Below, piece by piece: positions 40,331 through 51,451 of a DNA stretch of 64,000 bases. Positions within the stretch are counted from its first letter, which is position 1, and every line of letters starts with the position of its first letter. The DNA comes from Elioraea tepida (lineage in GTDB: Bacteria > Pseudomonadota > Alphaproteobacteria > Acetobacterales > Acetobacteraceae). A model generated the notes under the pieces. It had not been told where the DNA came from, did no database searches, and saw only the letters and a list, made by a program, of their open reading frames with translations. Both the position numbers and the translations under genes were made by a program. The stretch spans positions 372,001 through 436,000 of the forward strand of contig NZ_CP076448.1 in assembly GCF_019203965.1 (NCBI RefSeq), given 5' to 3'.

Positions 40331-40498
40331 TCCGTCCCGCCGTGCTCCCCTGGTGGTCGCCCCTTCGACGGCGCGGCGATGCTCCGGTGAGGAGCGATCG
40401 CCGGTCGCTCGTTGGGGTTCCCGGTCGGGGGAGGGGAGGCGACGGCGCGTCGTGACGACGGGCGCCAGCCGTTCTCGATTGTGGGCGAATGGGTGCCG

Positions 40499-40518
40499 CT
40501 GGCGGAGGGAGTGGGATT
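40499..40518 (+). repeat. Distal attachment site of the tRNA-Ser element
   Basis: CTGGCGGAGGGAGTGGGATT matches the tRNA-Ser 3' end in 19 of 20 positions (A for G at position 12). The match stops where the tRNA T-loop sequence begins (CGAACCC versus TGCTACC). It overlaps a near-perfect inverted repeat GTGGGATTTG/CAAATCCAC (40512-40533), possibly an integrase-binding structure. Confidence 0.85.
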
Positions 40519-40608
40519 TGCTACCACAAATCCACCCCTAAGCCATTCAACGGGTTAGGTTCTCTGCCGGCGGCAGTGTGATACGGCGAAGGTCATCGCG
40601 TCCAGCCC

Positions 40609-41424
40609 TCAGCGCACCCGCTGATGCGGCTGCGGCGGTCCTCCCGAGGCGGCCTCGTCGATCACGGCGGCAAGCGTGTCGTCCAGCGCGCGCCGCCACG
40701 CCCGAACCTCCGCATTGAGCGCCTGGCGCGTGGCGTTGCGGAGCGCCGCCGCCACGGGCACGCCCTGCCGCGCCAGGGCGGCGCGGGCCGGGCCGAGGTG
40801 CTCGCCCCCGAGCATGAAGGGGATGCGCTTCTCCCGCGCCTGCGCCGCATATGAGCGGGGGTCGAGGTCGGCGGCCACGCCGATCTCCGCCAGCGCCGCG
40901 CGCGCCCGCTTCGCCCATTCCGCGCGCCACGCCCGGAGGTGTCGGCTCCCTGCCTTGCGGTCGTCGAGTTCGCGCGTCTTCTCGGTGAGGCGCGCTCCCT
41001 CGCTGCGGCGGGTCGTCAGCAGGATGTGGCCGTGCAGGTTGCGGCGGTCGCCCTCTCGTCCCGGCAGGTGAAGCGACCAGTCCGCGGCGCAGCCGTGGCG
41101 CCGCGCGATCCATTCGGCCCAATCGCGCAGCAGCGCGGCGGCGCGCCCGGGCGGCAGCTCGTGCGGGATGGCGATCACCACCTCCCTCGCTACGGTGGCG
41201 TCGCGCCGCCGCTCGGCCTTCTCCGCCGCCGCCCAGAGCTCGCCGCGCGTGCCCTTCCAGCCCGCGAGGCCGCTCGCCGCCACGCCACGCTTCCGCGTAA
41301 AGTCGTGGCGCTCGCCCGTGCGGGGGTCGTCGAGCGCGACGGCTGCGCGGTAGGCCGCCGCAGCGACGGCGGTGCGGCCTGCTGAGCGCCTTATGGTGCT
41401 GGTTCGCATGTAGAGGATCGCCAC
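40609..41424 (-). CDS. MobA/MobL-family relaxase (short)
   Basis: DNA nickase that would cut and pilot the element's oriT strand. 271 residues. AGRTAVAAAAYRAAVALDD at the N-terminus is the MobA/MobL motif around the catalytic Tyr, and NLHGHILLTTRR (~129-140) is the metal-binding histidine motif. It covers little more than the relaxase domain; large plasmid relatives carry extra primase or helicase parts. The start is a GTG at 41424 with a strong GGGAGGAAA ribosome site. Divergent from the small accessory gene, with the oriT-like site between them. Confidence 0.88.
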   Translation of the reverse strand: MAILYMRTSTIRRSAGRTAVAAAAYRAAVALDDPRTGERHDFTRKRGVAASGLAGWKGTRGELWAAAEKAERRRDATVAREVVIAIPHELPPGRAAALLRDWAEWIARRHGCAADWSLHLPGREGDRRNLHGHILLTTRRSEGARLTEKTRELDDRKAGSRHLRAWRAEWAKRARAALAEIGVAADLDPRSYAAQAREKRIPFMLGGEHLGPARAALARQGVPVAAALRNATRQALNAEVRAWRRALDDTLAAVIDEAASGGPPQPHQRVR

Positions 41425-41448
41425 CCCGATTTCCTCCCTTCCCCGGCG

Positions 41449-41480
41449 TTCGGCGCAGCCGAATGCATCCTTGCGCCCTT
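41449..41480 (+). other. Candidate origin of transfer (oriT)
   Basis: In the 159-base gap upstream of the relaxase, TTCGGC-GCA-GCCGAA (41449-41463) is a perfect inverted repeat, followed 8 bases later by TGCGCCCT (41472-41479). IncQ (RSF1010/R1162) oriT sites have the same layout, an inverted repeat then a nick core containing TGCGCCCT, and are cut by relaxases of the MobA family. Position next to a MobA/MobL gene supports the call; nicking has not been shown. Confidence 0.55.
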
Positions 41481-41583
41481 CACCTTTGCCTGACCTGGTT
41501 CCCTCGGGGTGGCGGTCCAGTCCCTTTGTCCTCTTGGCTTCGTGGCCCTACTTCCCCGGCAAGACCATCGGAGGGAGGACGGC

Positions 41584-41880
41584 ATGGGTCGGAGACCGGC
41601 AAGCGAGCGGCTGCGCGCCCTCGAACAGGAACGGCAGGCGCTCGAAGCACGCATTGCCCGAGCACGGGCGCAGGCGCGCTCGGTCGAGCCGCAGCGGCTC
41701 TCTCGCCAGCGCTTCGTGCTGGGGGCCGTCCTCCTGCCCCTGCTGGGCGAGGAAAGCGCGGATGGCGAGGCGCTGCGGCGTCTCGTGCGTCAGCGCGCCT
41801 CGTCGCCCGCGGATCGCCGCCTGCTCGGGCTCGATGGCGACGAGGACGACGCGCCGGTTGCCATGATCGAGGACGACTGA
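41584..41880 (+). CDS. Small mobilization accessory protein (TraD/MobC-like)
   Basis: 98 residues. The N-terminal half is a charged coiled-coil-like helix (ERLRALEQERQALEARIARA), then QRFVLGAVLLPLLGEES and an acidic tail. Small proteins of this shape are encoded divergently from MobA/MobL relaxases and help load the relaxase at oriT. GGAGGGAGG precedes the ATG. The match is by shape and place, not by a strong motif. Confidence 0.65.
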   Translation: MGRRPASERLRALEQERQALEARIARARAQARSVEPQRLSRQRFVLGAVLLPLLGEESADGEALRRLVRQRASSPADRRLLGLDGDEDDAPVAMIEDD

Positions 41881-42233
41881 GCGCGCCGCCGCGCTCGTCC
41901 TGTCGCTCCACCGGATGGGCCGCCCCGTGGGCCGCTGGGGCGCGGCAACGTGTAGCCCTTCGGGATCCAGCCGAGCACGATCACCGCATAGGCGAGCAGG
42001 CGCGGGAGCAGGTGGATCGTCGGCCTCGCCGGGTCGGCATGGAGGTCGGTGCGGTCAAGCGACTCCCGCAGATAGCGAATCGGCGTCGCCTGGAACTCTG
42101 CCGGCACCTTCGTCAGGAAGATCAGCAGATCGGGAAGATGCCGGTCGAGGTCGCCCGCGAGTTCCACCTGTCGCGCGAGCGCGCGCCGCGCCGCCATCAG
42201 GTCGTTCCAGAGATCCGCCCGCGCCGCGCTCAT
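41790..42233 (-). CDS. Hypothetical protein of the mobile element
   Basis: 147 residues. The first ~100 look genuinely coding: ADLWNDLMAARRALARQVEL, DRHLPDLLIFLTKVPAEFQ and YAVIVLGWIPKGYTLPRPSG. The last ~50 (Gly/Arg/Ser-rich) overlap the convergent accessory gene by 91 bases and may be read-through. Its start lies inside the 3' part of the winged-helix gene. Family not recognised; it is probably co-transcribed with that gene. Confidence 0.55.
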   Translation of the reverse strand: MSAARADLWNDLMAARRALARQVELAGDLDRHLPDLLIFLTKVPAEFQATPIRYLRESLDRTDLHADPARPTIHLLPRLLAYAVIVLGWIPKGYTLPRPSGPRGGPSGGATGRARRRAQSSSIMATGASSSSPSSPSRRRSAGDEAR

Positions 42234-42864
42234 GGACGCCTCCACTCCTGCTGCCCGATCCGGACCTAGCGCCGCGCCGCGTCGCGACAAGCGCCCCGCG
42301 TGCCGGAGGCAGCAGAGGGCGGCGCCGCATCCGCTGGATGATTGGCGCCTCGTCCGGGTCGGAGAGCGGCGGATCCTGTCCGAGTTCGCAGTAGTGGAAG
42401 GCATTGCCACGGAACAGCACGCGCCGGCTGATCCGCAGCCCTGCCGGCTGGCCCTCCCTCGTGGTTCCCGGTCGCAGGATGCCGAGCGCGCGCATCCGCG
42501 CCACGGCCCGGCTGACCGCAGAAGGCGTGAGAGCGAGCCGCGCCGCGATGTCGGAAACGCGAAGCGGACTGGGCGTATCACCGAACTTCTGCACGAGGGT
42601 GAGAAGCGCGAATACGCGCAGCTCCCGATGCGTCAGATGCTCGATGGCGAAGACGAGGCCCTCGGGGAAGACGGTGAGGAAGGACGCGCCGAACGACGCC
42701 CGACGACGCTCGCGGCGACCGTTGATCACCAAGCCCGGCACCCCGGGAACGCCCAAGCTTAGAACCGCGCCGCTCTCGATTGCCTCGGCCACCACTTCAG
42801 CCGACGCGCCCGCGTCGATCAGGTAGGGGCCGCCGGGTGCGTGGGCGTCGTTCTCGCTCGCCAT
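42055..42864 (-). CDS. Winged-helix DNA-binding protein, possible replication or control protein
   Basis: 269 residues from ATG 42864, chosen for its GGGAGGA ribosome site over a 97-residue upstream extension that has no coding character. The central part is a MarR/RepL-like winged helix: HLTHRELRVFALLTLVQKFG, then IAARLALTPSAVSRAVARM (recognition helix) and LRISRRVLFRGNAFHYCELG as the wing. Similar proteins start replication or control copy number in small plasmids. The last ~60 residues overlap the next gene in another frame and are low-complexity, so the true C-terminus may be earlier or a frameshift may be present. Confidence 0.65.
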   Translation of the reverse strand: MASENDAHAPGGPYLIDAGASAEVVAEAIESGAVLSLGVPGVPGLVINGRRERRRASFGASFLTVFPEGLVFAIEHLTHRELRVFALLTLVQKFGDTPSPLRVSDIAARLALTPSAVSRAVARMRALGILRPGTTREGQPAGLRISRRVLFRGNAFHYCELGQDPPLSDPDEAPIIQRMRRRPLLPPARGALVATRRGARSGSGSRSGGVHERGAGGSLERPDGGAARARATGGTRGRPRPASSRSADLPDEGAGRVPGDADSLSAGVA

Positions 42865-43028
42865 CGTGGTCCTCCCAGTGTTGTTGCTGCTGACAACACT
42901 GGTTCCCACGATGGCGGCATCAAGCCGGGGGGCGGATCGCGAGCAAACCCCTGGGCGCGTTGGCGCTTTTCCCTTCGCGCCGGTCCGCGCGCCTCGCGCC
43001 TCTCCTGATCCTCCTTCCTGCTCTCGCC

Positions 43029-46000
43029 CTAAGCCGCCGCTGACTGGCCCCGTCGCAGCAGGAAGGCGAGTTCCTTCACGAGCGTCTGCGGGTTGCGGCA
43101 GACGTGGAAGTCCCAGCGGCCCAGCTTGCCCCAGGCATTGACGGCGCGCGCCCAACGCTTCGCGCCGTCGTGCTTCGCCGCGGTCTGGTTGTCCTCGCGC
43201 CCCTTGATTTCGAGGATGAGCGTCAGGTCGGGCTCGCCCTCCGGCGTCGCCATGCGAACGAGGAAATCCGGCTCGTAGGCATGATCCACGCCGAAGAACT
43301 CATAGGGAATCGTCAAGCCGAGGCCCTCGTTGCGCGCGTAGAAGCGGACGATTCCCTGCCTCACCGCCTCTTCAAGCCGGAAGGTCGCGCTCTGCTCCCA
43401 TTGCTGCGTGTCGGCGACGACGTGGCTGATGTGGCTGCTCTGCGTCGCGAAGACCGGGCGCTTGGTGCGGAACTCCACATCCGCCGTGCTGCCGATCTCG
43501 CGCGTCCGGTTCAAGAGCGGCAGAAGCGGCGGCTCGCCCGCGCTGTCGTCTGGCTGAATCGCATCCCTCACCCGCTCAACCAGCTGCCGAAGATACTTCT
43601 CAAGCCCAAGCTCCTGCGGCGGAGCACCGTTGAAATCAACCTTCCGCCGGACATACTCCTCCACCACCCGGAACACCTGCGGAAAGAGCGCGTGGCGTGA
43701 TTGCAGCGCGAACACGCGCCGCTTCTGCCCCGCATGCTGCGCGGTGCCGGCTGTCGTCAGTTCATCCACGATCCGCTGCGCCGCCTGAAACAGGATGGTC
43801 TGCGGATGGACCGAGGCATAGAACGCCGCGCGGTCCTGCTCGTGGTAGCCGAAGGGCGACGGCTCCTCGGCCAGCCCGCCGCTCACCTTCACGCCCACCT
43901 GCGGGCGAACGAAGGTGCCGGTCGGCTCCTCGCTCGGCTCGATCCGCAGCCGCTCCATTGCGCCGATATCGCAGCGGATAAGGTTCCGCCTCAACGCGAA
44001 AGCGTAGCCCTCGACGACGGGGAAACGCATCTCCATCGCCGCGCGCTCGGGCAGCGCCTTGATAAGGTTCGGCGGCGCGTCGTCAGGCTCGGGCCGATCC
44101 ACAGGGCGACCACGGAACGGAATGACCGAGAACGGCACGCCATAGACATCGCAGTATTCCTCGGCCAGCAGCCCCGTCGCCGGGTCGGGCCTATAGTCCA
44201 TCCGGCGCAGCCCGCGACCGACCACCTGCTCGCACAGCAACTGGCTCGTGAAGGCGCGCAAGCCCAGGATCTGAGTCACATTGTTGGCGTCCCATCCCTC
44301 CGTCAGCATCGAGACGGAGACGACGCAGCGCACATGCTCGCCCGGCTCACCGGCCTTGCCGACGGTCGCGACGACGCGGCGCAGCGCCTCCGCCGCGTCG
44401 GCCTTCTTCTTCGTGCCCTCGCCGGCTTCGGCCTGCGCGAGCAACTTGCTGTCGATGCGGATCGTGAATTTCCGCTCAGGCGTGTTGGCGAACAACTCGG
44501 GGAACACCTCGCCGTGGCCATAGGCAATGCGCGGCGTCGGCGTCTTGCCCTTCCGCTTCGGCGCCGCCTCGGCCTCCTCCTCCTTGTCATCCTCGCCGAG
44601 CACCTCCTCGACCTCGGCCTCGGTCGTTGTCTCGACGACGCGCTCACCGCTGATGCGGCGGTAGAACTCCTCGGCAATGTCGGTGTTGTCGCAGACGATG
44701 ATGAGGCAGGGCGGCGTGCGGTCGGCGCCGGGCTGCGCGGCCTGGATCAGCTCGAAGCGCTCCTTCCACTGCCCCATGATCTGCACCAGCGCGCCCTGCG
44801 CCTCGCGCCAGACCACCTCGGGCTTCGGCTTGCCCTGCCGCCCCGGTAGTTTCTCGCCCGGCTGAAGGCCGTCGCGGATGGCTTCCCAGAGGCGGAAATA
44901 GCGCGGGTCGGGGCGGCCCGTGGTGTCCTGCACGGGCAGGCGCGGAATCTTCGTGATGCCGCTCTCGATGGCATCCACGAGGCCGAAGTCAGAGACGATC
45001 CACGGGAAGGGCTGGCCCTCCGGGTAGCCGCTGCCCTTGATGCGGAATGGCGTGGCGGAGAGATCGACCACGAAGGCGATGCCCGGCTTCTCGCCGCCGG
45101 CGGCAATGAGGCGGTCGAGGCCATCGACCCAGACCGTCGCCTCCTTCGCCTCCTCCTCGAACGCGCTCCTCTCCTCGCCGGTCAGGCCCGCGCCTGCCTT
45201 GGTGCCGGGCGCGGGGCGCCAGCAATGGTGCCCCTCGTCATTGATGACGAGGATCGGCAGGCGGTCAGCCTTGTCGCGCAGGATGCGGCGCAGGAAGTCC
45301 TGCGGCGTCTCCTCGCCCTTATCGACCACGGCATGGTTCCTGTCGCCCTCCTTGTGCTGGCTCTCGGGCGCGAAGCGGTGCCAGTTCTCGATGATGACGG
45401 TGCCGCGCGCCAGCAGCGGGCGCCACTTCGACGGCACCAGGTCGAAGGCGTCGTAGTAGTTGCTCGCCGCGTCGGGGCGCAGCACCGCGAGCCGCTCCTT
45501 GACCGTGAGGTTCGGCGCGCAGACGAGTACGACATCGGGATACTCGCGGCTCTCGGGGCTGATGCCGCGATTGACGAAAGCCCACGCGATCAGCATGGCG
45601 GCGACCAGCGTCTTGCCGCTGCCGGTCGCGAGCTTGGCGGACATCCGCCGCAGCGGCAGCAGGGAGGGGGCCGCGGGCTTGTCGATCAGGCTCGGCCAGA
45701 AGGTGGCGTCAGCGGGCAGGCCGAAGGCGGGCCCAGGGCGCTCGCCGCGCAAGAGGCGGCCAAGGTCCTCCTCGCTCACCTTCGGCGTGAAGCGCAGCCG
45801 GCTCGTGCGCGCGTTGAAGCGGATCTCGGCGAGGTAGATCAGCGTCTCCACCGCCTCGCGCTGGCAGAAGAACAACCGCCGTTCGCGGTCCTCGCGCGAC
45901 CAATGCCGCAAGAGTTCCTTCGTCGCAGGCGTGGCCCCGCGATAGTCGGCCTCGCGCCAGCGCTTCACGTCCTCGCGCAGCAGGTTCGGAAGCGGAAGAT

Positions 46001-46232
46001 CATCCTGCTGCTCCTGCGCCAGCAGGGAGAGCTGCGCGCTGCCGGTGCGCTCGGTCTTGTACCAGTAGGAGGCCGGGCGCCGGCCCGGCTCCTTCCGCGC
46101 CGCGCCGGTCTGCGTGTCGTATTTCCAGTGCTGATCCGGCTCGGCGTAGGGCGAGCAGAGGATGGGCCGCTCGACGGGCTGGATCGGGATCTCGGTCTGC
46201 TGTGCGCCTGAGCCGCCGTTGCCGCGTGCCAT
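43029..46232 (-). CDS. Type III-like restriction endonuclease subunit (helicase-nuclease)
   Basis: ATP-driven translocase with a nuclease tail, 1067 residues. Walker A LATGSGKT (Lys207), DEGHH (332-336), SATPFRI, and helicase motif VI-like QVVGRGLRRMD mark an SF2 DExH motor. Near the C-terminus, YEPDFLVRM and LILEIKG (E1008-I-K1010) give a PD-(D/E)xK nuclease. It starts 4 bases after the methylase gene ends, the normal Mod-Res order. It would cut DNA lacking the partner's methylation. The two N-terminal hundred residues are not typical of EcoP15I-type Res, so it may belong to a side family. Confidence 0.88.
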   Translation of the reverse strand: MARGNGGSGAQQTEIPIQPVERPILCSPYAEPDQHWKYDTQTGAARKEPGRRPASYWYKTERTGSAQLSLLAQEQQDDLPLPNLLREDVKRWREADYRGATPATKELLRHWSREDRERRLFFCQREAVETLIYLAEIRFNARTSRLRFTPKVSEEDLGRLLRGERPGPAFGLPADATFWPSLIDKPAAPSLLPLRRMSAKLATGSGKTLVAAMLIAWAFVNRGISPESREYPDVVLVCAPNLTVKERLAVLRPDAASNYYDAFDLVPSKWRPLLARGTVIIENWHRFAPESQHKEGDRNHAVVDKGEETPQDFLRRILRDKADRLPILVINDEGHHCWRPAPGTKAGAGLTGEERSAFEEEAKEATVWVDGLDRLIAAGGEKPGIAFVVDLSATPFRIKGSGYPEGQPFPWIVSDFGLVDAIESGITKIPRLPVQDTTGRPDPRYFRLWEAIRDGLQPGEKLPGRQGKPKPEVVWREAQGALVQIMGQWKERFELIQAAQPGADRTPPCLIIVCDNTDIAEEFYRRISGERVVETTTEAEVEEVLGEDDKEEEAEAAPKRKGKTPTPRIAYGHGEVFPELFANTPERKFTIRIDSKLLAQAEAGEGTKKKADAAEALRRVVATVGKAGEPGEHVRCVVSVSMLTEGWDANNVTQILGLRAFTSQLLCEQVVGRGLRRMDYRPDPATGLLAEEYCDVYGVPFSVIPFRGRPVDRPEPDDAPPNLIKALPERAAMEMRFPVVEGYAFALRRNLIRCDIGAMERLRIEPSEEPTGTFVRPQVGVKVSGGLAEEPSPFGYHEQDRAAFYASVHPQTILFQAAQRIVDELTTAGTAQHAGQKRRVFALQSRHALFPQVFRVVEEYVRRKVDFNGAPPQELGLEKYLRQLVERVRDAIQPDDSAGEPPLLPLLNRTREIGSTADVEFRTKRPVFATQSSHISHVVADTQQWEQSATFRLEEAVRQGIVRFYARNEGLGLTIPYEFFGVDHAYEPDFLVRMATPEGEPDLTLILEIKGREDNQTAAKHDGAKRWARAVNAWGKLGRWDFHVCRNPQTLVKELAFLLRRGQSAAA

Positions 46233-46236
46233 CGCC

Positions 46237-49200
46237 TCAGCTCTCCAGCCGATGCACGCGCATCACCTCGTTGCCGCGCGGGTCGATCACCTTCACGGCC
46301 ACGGTGGCGTGCTCACCCTTCGGGAAGGGAAGGCTCTCGGTGCCGGAGAGCGCCTCGAAGGCCTCTGCCGGGATGATGCCTTTCAGCGCCTTCTCGAGCT
46401 TCTCCCAGGCCTCGCGGTCGGGGAAGAAGGCCTGGGTGATGCAGAAGGTGCGCCCGCCATAGTCGCTGTCGATGAACCAGGCTGCCACCTTGTCCTGCCG
46501 GGTCGGGATCACCGTGCCGGTGAGCGGGTCGTAGATGTCCACCCCCTCCAGCACCACGCGCCATTCGCCATCGCCCGCGGGTTCGACGCGCGAGCGCGGC
46601 AGGCCGAACACGGTGAAGAGCTGGGCCCGCGGCGTGTCCTTGAGCAGGCCTTGCATGCCTGGATTCACGTCGGGGCGGATGTGCGCCATATGCACGCGCA
46701 GGTTCGGGTTGTTCGGGTCCTGCAGGATCGCCTGGGCGGCTCCGTCGAAGGCGAAGCCAGCCATGACGAGATCGTCATAGCCGCGGCGCGCGGCTGCGCG
46801 GATCAGCTGCTCCACCTGTTTCGCGGTGACGGGGCCGTATTGCGGGCCGAAGGCGACGGCGACGGTCGCGCGGCCCTCCGGGTCGTCATCCACGCCGCCC
46901 TCCGGCATCCACCGCCCTTCGGCATGGATGCCGCTGGCCGTGCTGCCGAGCAGGTCGAGGCGCGAGAAGCGGCTGACCTTATTGTCCGGGAAGCGCACGC
47001 CGTCGAGCCGCAAGAGGCGGATCATCTGGTCGAGATAGGCAGCGGCGTTTTGCGGCTCCGCCGCGGCGGCGCCTGTCGGCGCGCCGGTCTCAAAAGTCTC
47101 GTCCAGCGCCTCGGGCGCACCCTCGATGGGGCTCGCTTCGGCGATTTCGTCTAGGCTTGTTTCGGCGGGCTGCACCGCCTCTACGGTGAAGGGGCCGGAG
47201 ACGCGCGTGATGCCGCGCACCACCTCGGGCTGATCGACCAGCTCCTCCTGCTCGGCATGGGCGGCGATGCAGGCGTCCACCTCGTCCTGCTTGGCGCGCC
47301 AAGCGGCGCGATAGGCGGTGATGGCGGCGGCGAGGTCGGGCGGGTGGTCTGGGTCAGTGTCGAAGGGCACGGTCCAGTGCTGGAAGCCTTCCTCGGGCTT
47401 CGGCAGCAGCCAGCGGCGGCGGTCACCGTCGGTGATGGCGCGCTTGCCCTCGCGCTTCTGTTTGTCGAGCAGTTTGCCGGCGAGGTGCGCGCGGGTGGTG
47501 TCGCTGACGGTCTTGAGCGCGGCGTTGAGCTCGGCGAGGCGTGCGTCGAGGATGGGCTCGTGCTTGGCGAAAATGGGGTCGAGCGCGGTGTTGTTGGCGA
47601 TGGAGCCAAGGGTGATATGCGGCACGGTCTTGCAGACGAAGCCGCCCGCGACGCCCTTGGCTTCGTCCTTCAGGCGGTAGTGGTCGAACTTCGCGGTCAT
47701 CAGCCGCTGCCGGGCGATGGCAATGGCGACTCGCGAGGTGTCGATGGTGATCCAGCGACGGCCCCATTGCTCTGCAACGATGGCTGTCGTTCCTGAGCCG
47801 CAGGTCGGATCGAGAACGAGGTCTCCTGGATCAGTCGTCATCAGAATGCAGCGCTTCACGATCTCGCTGTTGGTTTGCACCGCGTAGCGCTTGTCATCGG
47901 CTCCGACCGTATCGTTCCAGGGAACTGTGAGGTCGCCCATTGCCTTGTCATCGGCGTGCAGGACGTATCGCAGCAGGTTGCCGGCTGGGAGCACCCTGTT
48001 TGCTTCGTAGAGCCGCTTTAGGCCAGTGGGATCGACAGCATAGCCATTTTTAGGATGGTCGAACGCCTTTCCGAAAAGCTCTGGTCGGAACTTCCCGGTT
48101 TCTCTGGGTCCAGATGGTTCTAGCGACTTGCTTGTCGCAAGGATGCCTTTGCGCTCGCTGCCGCCGCCTGCGTCAGCGATCTCGCCATTCGGCTGGACGA
48201 GAAGCCGAAATCCGTTCTCGGGTCCGTAGCCCATCTCTCTGTATAGCCGGCGGAATTTGAAGCCAAGGCGGTCTTTGTCTTTACAATACCACAGTAAAAA
48301 GTCTGACATCTGCTCGATGAACCGCGTCCCGAACGGCATTGTTTTCTTTCGGAACGGAATCACGCTGACGAGATTTCTGCCCCCAAACACTTCATCGAGC
48401 AGCGCTGCGATGCGATGGACGTTGTCCTCGCCGATCTGCACGAACACGCTGCCTGTGTCAGCGAGCAGCGTGCGCGCGACGATCAGGCGGTCGCGCAGAT
48501 AGGCGAGATAGGAATGCACCCCGAGGCGCCAGGTGTCGCGATAGGCGCGCACCATCTCGGGCTCACGCGTCAGGTCGGCCTCCTTGTCCGACACGGTGCG
48601 CTTGCCCGTCTCCGGCTGAAAATTGCTGCCGAAGCGGATGCCATAGGGCGGGTCGATGTAGATCATCTGCACCTTGCCCGCGAGGCCCTCGCGCTGCGCG
48701 AGCGAGGCCATCACCTGCAGGCTGTCGCCCAGGATCAGCCGGTTCGCCCAATCCACATCGTGCTGGTAGAAGCGCACGGCTTGCGCGTAGCCGAGCTTCG
48801 GGTCGGCGAAGAGGTCGCGCGTGATGTCCTGCCGCGCTGCGGCGCGCAGAATGGCCTGGGTGCTCACGCGCTCATGGATGTGCAGCGCGACAGGATCCAC
48901 CGCGAAGCCCGGCAACTCCCGCTTGCCCGCCCATTCGAGCCAGGGCTCGTGCCGCCGCAGCGCCTCGGCCAGCAACGCGGCTTCCTCGCGCGTCAGCGGC
49001 TCGCGCGTTGCCTTCTCGAGCAGCGGCGGCAGCGCATCGGCCTTGCCGCTCGCGTCGAAGCGAAGCACGGGGTCGAGCCGCGGCGAATAGGCGTAGGTCA
49101 GTTTCGGGGCCGGCGGCGTGCGCCCCTCGGCGGCGATCGCGGCGGGCGGGTTGTTGGGGCGCTTCGCCCCCTCGTGGCGATAGTCCTCCACCGGCAGGCT

Positions 49201-49239
49201 GGCCTGCCCCGCTGCCTCGCCCCGCCTCCTCCTCGCCAT
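46237..49239 (-). CDS. Type III-like adenine-specific DNA methyltransferase (Mod)
   Basis: 1000 residues, much longer than most Mod proteins. Catalytic motif IV DPPYGIRFGSNF (from residue 196) precedes SAM motif I LDPTCGSGTTA (477-486), the beta-class order typical of N6-adenine Mod enzymes. About 190 residues come before the methylase core, and ~500 after it probably hold target recognition and Res contacts (PFTVEAVQP, RFSRLDLLG). Start ATG 49239: the frame runs another ~410 codons upstream, but that is a shadow of the integrase gene. It protects host DNA and sets the specificity of the pair. Confidence 0.88.
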   Translation of the reverse strand: MARRRRGEAAGQASLPVEDYRHEGAKRPNNPPAAIAAEGRTPPAPKLTYAYSPRLDPVLRFDASGKADALPPLLEKATREPLTREEAALLAEALRRHEPWLEWAGKRELPGFAVDPVALHIHERVSTQAILRAAARQDITRDLFADPKLGYAQAVRFYQHDVDWANRLILGDSLQVMASLAQREGLAGKVQMIYIDPPYGIRFGSNFQPETGKRTVSDKEADLTREPEMVRAYRDTWRLGVHSYLAYLRDRLIVARTLLADTGSVFVQIGEDNVHRIAALLDEVFGGRNLVSVIPFRKKTMPFGTRFIEQMSDFLLWYCKDKDRLGFKFRRLYREMGYGPENGFRLLVQPNGEIADAGGGSERKGILATSKSLEPSGPRETGKFRPELFGKAFDHPKNGYAVDPTGLKRLYEANRVLPAGNLLRYVLHADDKAMGDLTVPWNDTVGADDKRYAVQTNSEIVKRCILMTTDPGDLVLDPTCGSGTTAIVAEQWGRRWITIDTSRVAIAIARQRLMTAKFDHYRLKDEAKGVAGGFVCKTVPHITLGSIANNTALDPIFAKHEPILDARLAELNAALKTVSDTTRAHLAGKLLDKQKREGKRAITDGDRRRWLLPKPEEGFQHWTVPFDTDPDHPPDLAAAITAYRAAWRAKQDEVDACIAAHAEQEELVDQPEVVRGITRVSGPFTVEAVQPAETSLDEIAEASPIEGAPEALDETFETGAPTGAAAAEPQNAAAYLDQMIRLLRLDGVRFPDNKVSRFSRLDLLGSTASGIHAEGRWMPEGGVDDDPEGRATVAVAFGPQYGPVTAKQVEQLIRAAARRGYDDLVMAGFAFDGAAQAILQDPNNPNLRVHMAHIRPDVNPGMQGLLKDTPRAQLFTVFGLPRSRVEPAGDGEWRVVLEGVDIYDPLTGTVIPTRQDKVAAWFIDSDYGGRTFCITQAFFPDREAWEKLEKALKGIIPAEAFEALSGTESLPFPKGEHATVAVKVIDPRGNEVMRVHRLES

Positions 49240-49328
49240 CAACCACCCCCCGGCTGCTCGAATCACCTGCCGGCAGGGTGACGGAAGCGGCATACACTTC
49301 GCAACCCGCCGTTGAAGGCCGCCAGCGC

Positions 49329-51248
49329 TTATTCGGCTGCCTCGCCCTCCTGCTCGGCCCGGCGGGAGGGGTGGATCTGGAAGGGCCGGATCCGCTTCTG
49401 CCGGCTGGCGTAAAGGTGCGAGAGGTCGATGCCAAAATCCACGGAGTCGACCAACGCGCGCGTGTGCTGCGGGCCGAGCTTCGCGTAGTGCGCCGCCATC
49501 TCGCGCCGCGGCTTGTGGCCGACCGTGGAATCCACGAGCGTCGTGTTCGTCGTCGGCAGGCCCTCGACGGTGGTGATGAAGGTCGTGCGGAAGGCGTGGA
49601 AGTCGCAGGCGTCGGGCAGGCCGAGGCGGCGGCGCAGGTCGGTGAAGCGGCGGGAGTAGTAGGCCGAGAGGCTGTCGCGCGCCTTGCCGCGCGGCATCTC
49701 GGGGAACAAGAGGCGGCTTCCCTTGGCGCGCGCCGCGGCGGCGAAGTCGAGCAGGCCGAGGCGGATCAGCTCGGCGTGGATCGGCACCATGCGCCGCGCC
49801 GAGGCGGTCTTCCTTCGCGCGTCCTCGTGCCAGGCCACGCGGATGACGGGCACGCCCCGCGCCTCCGCGATGTCGTCGCTGCGGAGCTGAAGCGCCTCCT
49901 CGGCGCGCAAGCCCGCGAAGAGCGCAAGGAAGGGCACCCACCACCCGTCCTCGATCACCATCCGCCCCGGCATGTGGCGCCGCTCGGGCGAGCGGCAGCC
50001 GGTCCAGAGCGGCGAGGCGAAGAGGCGCGCGAGGTATTCCGGCTCCCACGGGCTGCGGTTCTTCCGCGCCCCGCCGAAGCGGTCGATCTCGGCGCTCCGG
50101 TAGCGGAAGCCGAGGAACGGGTTCGGCCCGAGATGCGTGCCCTCCTGAATGAGGCGGTTCATCAGCCCGGCGAAGAAATCCATGTGGTTGTTGATCGTCT
50201 TCGGATGGAGCCGCATGGCGAGGCGCTCGGCGTGCTTGCGCGCCAGGCGCCGGCCCTCGAACACGATCACGCCGCTCGTCGCCGGGGCCGCCGCAATGGC
50301 TTCGGCCAGCCGGTCGGCCTTCTCGATGGCGTCGCGCAGGCTGAGGCCGCGATAGAGGCTGGCCTTCGCCCAATCCACGGGCACGCGGTCGAGCCGGTCG
50401 CGGAACTGGGCGGCATGGCTTCGCACGACCTGCGGCGCCGGGATGAGCCTTTCGGAGCCGTCCCAACAATGCATGAGGCCGTGCCAGAGTCGGAAGGCGA
50501 CCTTCGCTTTACCCTGCGACGCCTTGCCCCACCCGCCGCGCTCCTTCTTGCGCTTGGCGTGCGCGGCGAAGGCGTCTTCGAGCGTCGCAAGCGCGATGTC
50601 ATCGACGGCCATTGCCGCCACGCGCGTCGGCGTGTGGCTCTCAGGGATGGGGAAGGCGCCAAGGTCGCTGTCGCCGTCGCTTTCGCTCACCTTCTTTGCC
50701 CGCACCACGACGCGCAGCGCCATGCGGAGCAGGGTGCGGTAGAGGTGGAAATGGTCGGGCGGGGCAAGCCCCCGTTCGGCGAGGCGCTGGACCACAAGCG
50801 GCTGGACGCGGCGAATGTCGTTCTCCCGAAGCGACCGCTCCCACGCTTCCGCCGACTGCTCGTCGTGGTCACGGGTGAGGATGTCGATCTCCTCCGGGGT
50901 GAGCGGTTCCGTGGCAAGGCCCTCCTCGGCCATCTCGGCGGGTGAGAGGACAGCGGCGCGGATGGATTCCTTGCCGAGAACGATGTCGTCGTAGATCGAG
51001 CGCAGCACCTCCATCATCTCGGCGTCTGTCGGCTGGCGGAGGGGCGGCACGCGGTCGAGCATGGCGGCGAAGGTCTCGAAGGCTGCGGTTGCGCGCGCTG
51101 CCCGCCGGCGCGCTTCCCGGGGCTCGCGGGTGCCGAGCGACCACGCGATCACCGCCCGGCCAAGCCGGGGCGCGAGGCGGCGGGGCAGCCGCACGCGCCA
51201 GAAATACCGGCCATCCCTTTCCCACACATGAACGCGCCTGAGCGCCAT
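49329..51248 (-). CDS. Tyrosine-type site-specific recombinase (integrase)
   Basis: 639 residues, long for the class. The N-terminus RRVHVWERDGRYFWRVRLPR is an arm-binding domain of the DUF6538 type; a core-binding helical part includes LHPKTINNHMDFFAGLMNRL; the catalytic domain has Arg in LFAGLRAEEALQLR, Lys in ARRKTASARRMVPIH, HxxR in DFHAFRTTF, and the final His and Tyr in VGHKPRREMAAHYAK. It is adjacent to tRNA-Ser, reading away from it, the usual layout for elements that integrate into a tRNA 3' end. No excisionase gene was recognised. Confidence 0.92.
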   Translation of the reverse strand: MALRRVHVWERDGRYFWRVRLPRRLAPRLGRAVIAWSLGTREPREARRRAARATAAFETFAAMLDRVPPLRQPTDAEMMEVLRSIYDDIVLGKESIRAAVLSPAEMAEEGLATEPLTPEEIDILTRDHDEQSAEAWERSLRENDIRRVQPLVVQRLAERGLAPPDHFHLYRTLLRMALRVVVRAKKVSESDGDSDLGAFPIPESHTPTRVAAMAVDDIALATLEDAFAAHAKRKKERGGWGKASQGKAKVAFRLWHGLMHCWDGSERLIPAPQVVRSHAAQFRDRLDRVPVDWAKASLYRGLSLRDAIEKADRLAEAIAAAPATSGVIVFEGRRLARKHAERLAMRLHPKTINNHMDFFAGLMNRLIQEGTHLGPNPFLGFRYRSAEIDRFGGARKNRSPWEPEYLARLFASPLWTGCRSPERRHMPGRMVIEDGWWVPFLALFAGLRAEEALQLRSDDIAEARGVPVIRVAWHEDARRKTASARRMVPIHAELIRLGLLDFAAAARAKGSRLLFPEMPRGKARDSLSAYYSRRFTDLRRRLGLPDACDFHAFRTTFITTVEGLPTTNTTLVDSTVGHKPRREMAAHYAKLGPQHTRALVDSVDFGIDLSHLYASRQKRIRPFQIHPSRRAEQEGEAAE

Positions 51249-51271
51249 CGCCGCCCCCTGCGGCGCGCGTG

Positions 51272-51292
51272 GTGCTACAGCGAAGTGCTACA
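51272..51292 (+). repeat. Direct repeat pair upstream of the integrase
   Basis: GTGCTACA occurs at 51272-51279 and again at 51285-51292, 13 bases apart, between the integrase start and the attachment site. Spaced short direct repeats here are typical of integrase arm-binding sites; this is suggestive only. Confidence 0.35.
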
Positions 51293-51360
51293 CCGCCGCG
51301 AACCGCCCTTCGTTGCGGCAGAGCCAACCGATTGAGTTTTCTCGGAAATCCGAGGAGAAT

Positions 51361-51380
51361 CTGGCGGAGGGGGTGGGATT
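51361..51380 (+). repeat. tRNA-proximal attachment site of the element
   Basis: CTGGCGGAGGGGGTGGGATT covers the CCA, acceptor stem and part of the T arm of tRNA-Ser (read on the minus strand) and is the partner of 40499-40518. The tRNA remains intact, as expected when the element supplies an identical 3' end on insertion. Confidence 0.85.
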
Positions 51381-51451
51381 CGAACCCACGGTACCGTTGC
51401 CGGTACTCCGGTTTTCAAGACCGGTGCATTCGACCGCTCTGCCACCCCTCC
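51362..51451 (-). tRNA. tRNA-Ser (UGA)
   Basis: 90 bases with encoded CCA. Minus strand starts GGAGGGGTGGCAGAGCGG, the anticodon loop is CTTGAAA with TGA at 51415-51417, a long variable arm (ACCGGCAACGGTACC region) marks it as a serine tRNA, and the T arm is GGGTTCGAATCCC. Its 3' end is the integration target of the neighbouring element. Confidence 0.97.

Follow-up and report, generated by a model that had tools for sequence, protein, structure and literature searches.

Transfer origins used by MOBQ relaxases share a general appearance that is already known. MobA of plasmid RSF1010 cleaves CAGTTTCTCGAAGAGAAACCGGTAAGTGCG/CCCTCCC, with a substrate carrying a 6-bp stem being equally good (PMC4814116), and the consensus of MOBQ oriT sites has been given as NWACCNNTAAGTGCGCCCTYNN (PMC3832669). 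As for chromosomal carriers of such sites, a 2017 review stated that no integrative and mobilizable element (IME) with its own relaxase and without secretion genes was known in Proteobacteria and that nick sites had been mapped only in some elements of Bacteroidetes and Firmicutes (PMC5704250). A later survey described one MOBQ IME in Mesorhizobium (PMC8627217).

Here, we analyzed a 64-kb stretch (hereafter, the window) of an Elioraea-like Acetobacteraceae chromosome and conclude that positions 41436-41528 are very probably the transfer origin of a 10.9-kb IME (~40499-51361) residing in the 3' end of tRNA-Ser(TGA). The novelty of this site lies in a small change within the nick region.

An integrated element at tRNA-Ser(TGA)

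The earlier note on this DNA had placed a MobA/MobL relaxase on a chromosomal element, an assignment borne out by the relaxase domain itself and by a tyrosine integrase, a tRNA-Ser target, and matching att ends. The element spans ~10.9 kb, from the att at 40499 to that at 51361, with the putative oriT ~1 kb from the left end. Its main features are as follows:

40499-40521, minus strand: left att, a degenerate copy of the tRNA-Ser 3' end, CTGGCGGAGGGAGTGGGATTTGC
40609-41424, minus strand: MOBQ-type relaxase (MobA/MobL), 271 aa, relaxase domain only (PF03389, E 1.4e-37)
41584-41880, plus strand: orf98, a divergent ORF of 98 aa, with 84% amino acid identity to its counterpart in the relative L031
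42055-42900, minus strand: winged-helix (MarR/IclR-type) DNA-binding protein, start codon uncertain (PF09339/PF12802, E ~3e-6)
43029-46232, minus strand: cargo, BPTD_3080-family restriction endonuclease (helicase-type Res; NF046055, 885 bits, cut-off 800)
46237-49260, minus strand: cargo, type III-like DNA methyltransferase (PF01555, E 4e-31), with an uncertain 5' gene end
49329-51248, minus strand: tyrosine integrase in which the R, HxxR, GH, and Y motifs can be seen, with DUF6538 at the N terminus
51361-51451, minus strand: target tRNA-Ser (TGA), the 3' end of which is the other att

The integrase gene lies directly downstream of tRNA-Ser(TGA), and the methyltransferase is also matched by the PADLOC MTase_III model (E 6.5e-150). 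A few positions distinguish the left att from the tRNA end, and the same degenerate copy is found at the corresponding end of L031. No coupling protein or mating-pore genes were detected among the main element ORFs scanned. By its integrase, att ends, own relaxase, and predicted oriT, the element fits the description of a canonical IME. Searches of the whole genome with 2 models, including PF02534, yielded no coupling protein; hence, transfer in this strain would need an outside helper. The genome carries a partial VirB-type secretion cluster (VirB2, VirB4, VirB6, and VirB8) at G000:C1 ~97700-103900 (L052).

The right flank, consisting of tRNA-Ser and a nucleotidase gene, is syntenic in 4 related genomes, in which no clean empty site was found, with contig ends and repeated tRNA-end copies interfering. 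The integrase and the L,D-transpeptidase have no match in the other 2 genomes of the genus, so that no direct left-flank empty site is available from them. Beside tRNA-Ser(TGA) of one related genome, the 3' end of tRNA-Ser recurs several times in near-tandem fashion (L038, 1069-1440). These copies look like att remnants of repeated integrations, and the tRNA is likely to be a hotspot of insertion. A second integrase, 43% identical to that of the element, is encoded directly downstream of tRNA-Ser(GCT) (G000:C1:337544-339412; L051 3497-5434), which suggests that an element of this type has also integrated there; the genome yielded no further relaxase of the MobA/MobL family.

Translation of the relaxase starts from a GTG codon at 41424 on the minus strand. 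The best model is NCBIfam MobQ, matched over its full length (1-197/197) with 167.4 bits, which is below the 200-bit cut-off; membership in the MOBQ family is thus likely, but the equivalog label is unearned. Residues Y25, E81, H119, H131, and H133 align with the catalytic columns of IncQ1 MobA, providing the catalytic tyrosine and the three-histidine metal site of MOBQ relaxases. The protein, which has no counterpart of the C-terminal domain of IncQ1 MobA, shares 31% identity with the latter; among solved structures, the NES nicking enzyme 4HT4 is nearest to it in sequence (E 1.4e-11).

A conserved hairpin and core upstream of the relaxase gene

The relaxase gene and orf98 are separated by a short gap with the following features:

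41425-41583: gap between the relaxase gene and the divergent ORF, 159 bp
41415-41429: left arm of an outer 15-bp inverted repeat (14/15), overlapping the relaxase start codon
41436-41528, plus strand: putative oriT island, non-coding, conserved with respect to L031 (94.6% identity)
41446-41466, plus strand: putative oriT inverted repeat GCGTTCGGC-GCA-GCCGAATGC; the stem position is kept and pairs change in relatives
41467-41471, plus strand: spacer ATCCT, mostly ATAAG or TAAAG in relatives
41472-41479, plus strand: nick core TGCGCCCT, with the nick predicted at 41475/41476 (TGCG/CCCT)
41504-41518: right arm of the outer 15-bp inverted repeat

Direct reading of the sequence gives the perfect 6-bp inverted repeat TTCGGC-GCA-GCCGAA at 41449-41463 and the core at 41472-41479 exactly as the earlier note had reported them. 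If a single G/T mismatch is allowed, each arm of the repeat is 9 bp long (41446-41454 and 41458-41466), and the predicted nick position was transferred by homology from RSF1010 (PMC4814116). We dropped the core by itself as evidence, because its frequency is that of chance (3 occurrences in the 64-kb window versus 4.4 expected). The window has a single instance of the combined signature, i.e., the core preceded at 3-10 nt by a perfect 6-bp repeat, for which the expectation is 0.09 per 64 kb and ~2e-4 for the 159-bp gap. The arrangement typical of MOBQ transfer origins, a hairpin followed by TGCGCCCT beside a relaxase gene, is present. The full consensus is not matched, in that TAAG is replaced by TCCT and the preceding CC differs, but TGCGCCCTY and a few other positions agree.

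Three-base GNA loops make very stable DNA mini-hairpins, and a GNA triloop (GAA or GCA) closes nearly all oriT hairpins compared here, the loop in the window being at 41455-41457. Modelled as RNA, the hairpin of the region is no better than those of shuffled sequences, and the DNA hairpin energy by itself is unremarkable (z -1.4); the case for a putative oriT is comparative rather than based on hairpin energy. The earlier note had described a divergent promoter region; the gene layout is indeed divergent, but no sigma-70-like promoter was found in 41300-41700. A search of the gap DNA against plasmids returned no real relative. The outer 15-bp repeat, which brackets the putative oriT, could be an operator or a start-codon hairpin. 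We rejected it as a general part of such origins, since it occurs only in the window and partly in L031, other relatives being devoid of it.

We scanned both strands of the DNA upstream of related relaxases, which are mostly 38-51% identical and come from the same bacterial order. The core TGCGC(C/A)(C/T)T is present on the strand opposite the relaxase in all 28 loci with upstream DNA, which include the window's own copy and L031 and of which many are near-identical plasmid-like modules, leaving ~10 independent observations. It is usually located 35-85 nt upstream of the relaxase gene; the larger distances in L008, L011, and L029 may be explained by start calls or inserts. The core is preceded by a perfect 6-bp repeat in 26 of the 28 loci and by an imperfect one in the other 2, while the same loci outside the upstream regions (88 kb) contain no such combination of repeat and core. 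The stem sequences vary and the pairing is kept (e.g., GCAAACTC/GAGTTTGC, GCATTG/CAATGC, and GCGTTCGGC/GCCGAATGC), with stem pairs 4-8 altered on both sides and still paired. Across ~10 distinct sequences, the spacing between the repeat and TGCGC is fixed at 4-5 nt, and strand and order are constant. Loss of the repeat and core among homologues, which had been named in advance as an outcome that would speak against a transfer origin, was thus looked for, and the signature proved to be kept in every checkable relative.

The same core is found in betaproteobacterial (Comamonas and Delftia) and Microvirga plasmid loci. In an IncQ1 plasmid, the interval between mobA and mobC reads CCAGTTTCTC-GAA-GAGAAACCGG-TAAG-TGCGCCCT, in agreement with the likeness to the RSF1010/R1162 nick region that the earlier note had pointed out. 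Collectively, the site in the window most likely shares ancestry with MOBQ transfer origins.

A single Elioraea-type relative, L031, an uncultured Elioraea contig (MAG) encoding a relaxase 88% identical to that of the window, accounts for the bulk of the conservation at close range. Nucleotide homology between the two is confined to the integrase and to a regulator-orf98-oriT-relaxase-att block, each 82% identical; it begins at 40498 in the window and does not go beyond the att copy. Identity reaches 98% over 41440-41488, compared with 86% in the relaxase gene, 79.5% in orf98, and ~55% in the orf98-proximal rest of the non-coding gap, placing the putative oriT among the best-conserved stretches of the common module. 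An oriT would be expected to stand out in this manner, as a conserved non-coding island next to poorly conserved DNA that is likewise non-coding. The cargo between the homologous blocks differs, with a restriction-modification pair in the window (43029-49260) and a region including an ORF for a TPR protein in L031 (1077-4134); the two thus represent a conserved, putative mobility backbone with exchangeable cargo. Both Elioraea elements have the spacer TCCT instead of TAAG. Among 385 genomes sampled across the class, the TCCT variant was found only at the window's own site, apart from 2 loose matches with two mismatches.

The ATG of orf98 at 41584 is preceded by GGAGGGAGGA, a strong ribosome-binding site. 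The protein has no Pfam match, and we abandoned it as a Pfam-recognised accessory protein; tblastn found no plasmid relative of its L031 counterpart. The TraD-like ORFs occupying the same place in relatives show a weak profile match to orf98 (hhalign probability 37%, E 3.5e-4), suggestive of homology. Given its TraD/MobC position, orf98 probably encodes a relaxosome accessory protein.

Alternative explanations and a model of transfer

The repeat might serve as the operator through which a regulator controls the divergently oriented relaxase and orf98 genes, with TGCGCCCT being incidental. Its location between divergent genes, the outer repeat that brackets the site and covers the relaxase start, and the winged-helix protein encoded nearby would all suit such a role. 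However, an operator by itself would not require the core, whereas the repeat and TGCGC are held in fixed spacing, strand, and order over ~10 distinct sequences, and it is this arrangement that is nicked in RSF1010 (PMC4814116). We therefore regard a purely regulatory repeat as highly improbable. Relaxases often repress their own promoters, so that the roles of operator and oriT may coexist.

It is somewhat easier to imagine, although still unlikely, that the oriT is real and its function has been lost, the element being a decayed remnant. The imperfect left att, a relaxase reduced to the nicking domain in an element without helper genes, and the replacement of the second glutamate of motif II by V83 could be read as signs of decay. 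Yet, the degenerate att copy is kept in L031 and hence is a stable feature, valine occupies the position of V83 also in the relatives L006 and L026, the element genes keep open frames, and the oriT is better conserved than the flanking coding sequence. Integration of an IncQ-type plasmid, suggested by the oriT core and by the mobA-oriT-small gene layout as in an IncQ1 plasmid, is the explanation that we find hardest to credit: no protein of the element was recognised as the product of a repA/repB/repC-type replication gene, the relaxase is distant from IncQ1 MobA and shorter than it, and a dedicated integrase and att ends are present.

We thus favor the transfer origin of an IME, and from the sequence, element boundaries, gene content, and conservation we infer how excision, nicking, and transfer could proceed. 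The integrase would excise the element as a circle, whereupon the relaxase would bind the base of the hairpin at 41446-41466 and nick the plus strand at 41475/41476 (TGCG/CCCT), with the 98-aa divergent protein probably aiding the opening of the site. Y25 would remain linked to the 5' end, and transfer would proceed rightwards, so that the leading part received would consist of orf98, the regulator, the restriction-modification cargo, and int, and the relaxase gene would be the last to arrive. A helper plasmid or ICE would have to supply the coupling protein and mating pore. Finally, the relaxase would reclose the strand, and the integrase would insert the element at the tRNA-Ser of the recipient. 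The restriction-modification system could, in this way, move between Acetobacteraceae using minimal transfer machinery.

More speculatively, the nick reading of the relaxase may have shifted from TAAGTGCG to TCCTTGCG in a small lineage of Elioraea IMEs (the window and L031) with interchangeable defence or other cargo, yielding an oriT without cross-reaction to the common MOBQ plasmids of the same host family. We consider this scenario possible but rather doubtful. Owing to the altered spacer, the specificity of the relaxase can be probed directly with short oligonucleotides.

Comparison with described mobilizable systems

RSF1010/R1162 (IncQ1, MOBQ1) resembles the window in having a hairpin with a GNA triloop followed by TGCG/CCCT, a mismatched third pair counted from the base of the stem, and an oriT between the relaxase gene and a small divergent gene. 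The two differ in the spacer (TAAG in RSF1010 versus ATCCT) and in the distance from stem to nick (8 nt versus 9 nt in the window), and IncQ1 is a replicating plasmid with a much longer relaxase. The designation "IncQ-like" used in the earlier note is thus correct for the type of site, which is of a general MOBQ kind, whereas the relaxase, spacer, and accessory gene depart from those of IncQ1 plasmids, and the element itself is no IncQ plasmid.

Closer in relaxase sequence are the MobQ modules of Acetobacteraceae genomes and of betaproteobacterial plasmids (L003-L030, pZM22-2, and pBR1.1), with relaxases 38-51% identical to that of the window. They carry the hairpin and TGCGCCCTT upstream on the same strand and, in many cases, a divergent small TraD-like ORF weakly similar to orf98; unlike the window, they have the spacer ATAAG or TAAAG, and several of the records are plasmids. 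The MOBQ4 systems of enterobacterial plasmids are comparable in layout, with the oriT located between divergent mobA and mobC (<100 aa), but are plasmids, unlike the element described here (PMC6856555). Mesorhizobium IMEMc WSM1284 shares with the window a chromosomal location, a MOBQ relaxase, and a tRNA target, but is 98.9 kb long and targets tRNA-Trp (PMC8627217). Finally, like canonical IMEs, the element combines its own relaxase and a predicted oriT with a tyrosine integrase and no genes for a coupling protein or pore (PMC5704250). It would thus be an IME from Proteobacteria that encodes a MOBQ relaxase of its own and for which the nick site can be predicted precisely, representing a class that had no proteobacterial example in the 2017 review.
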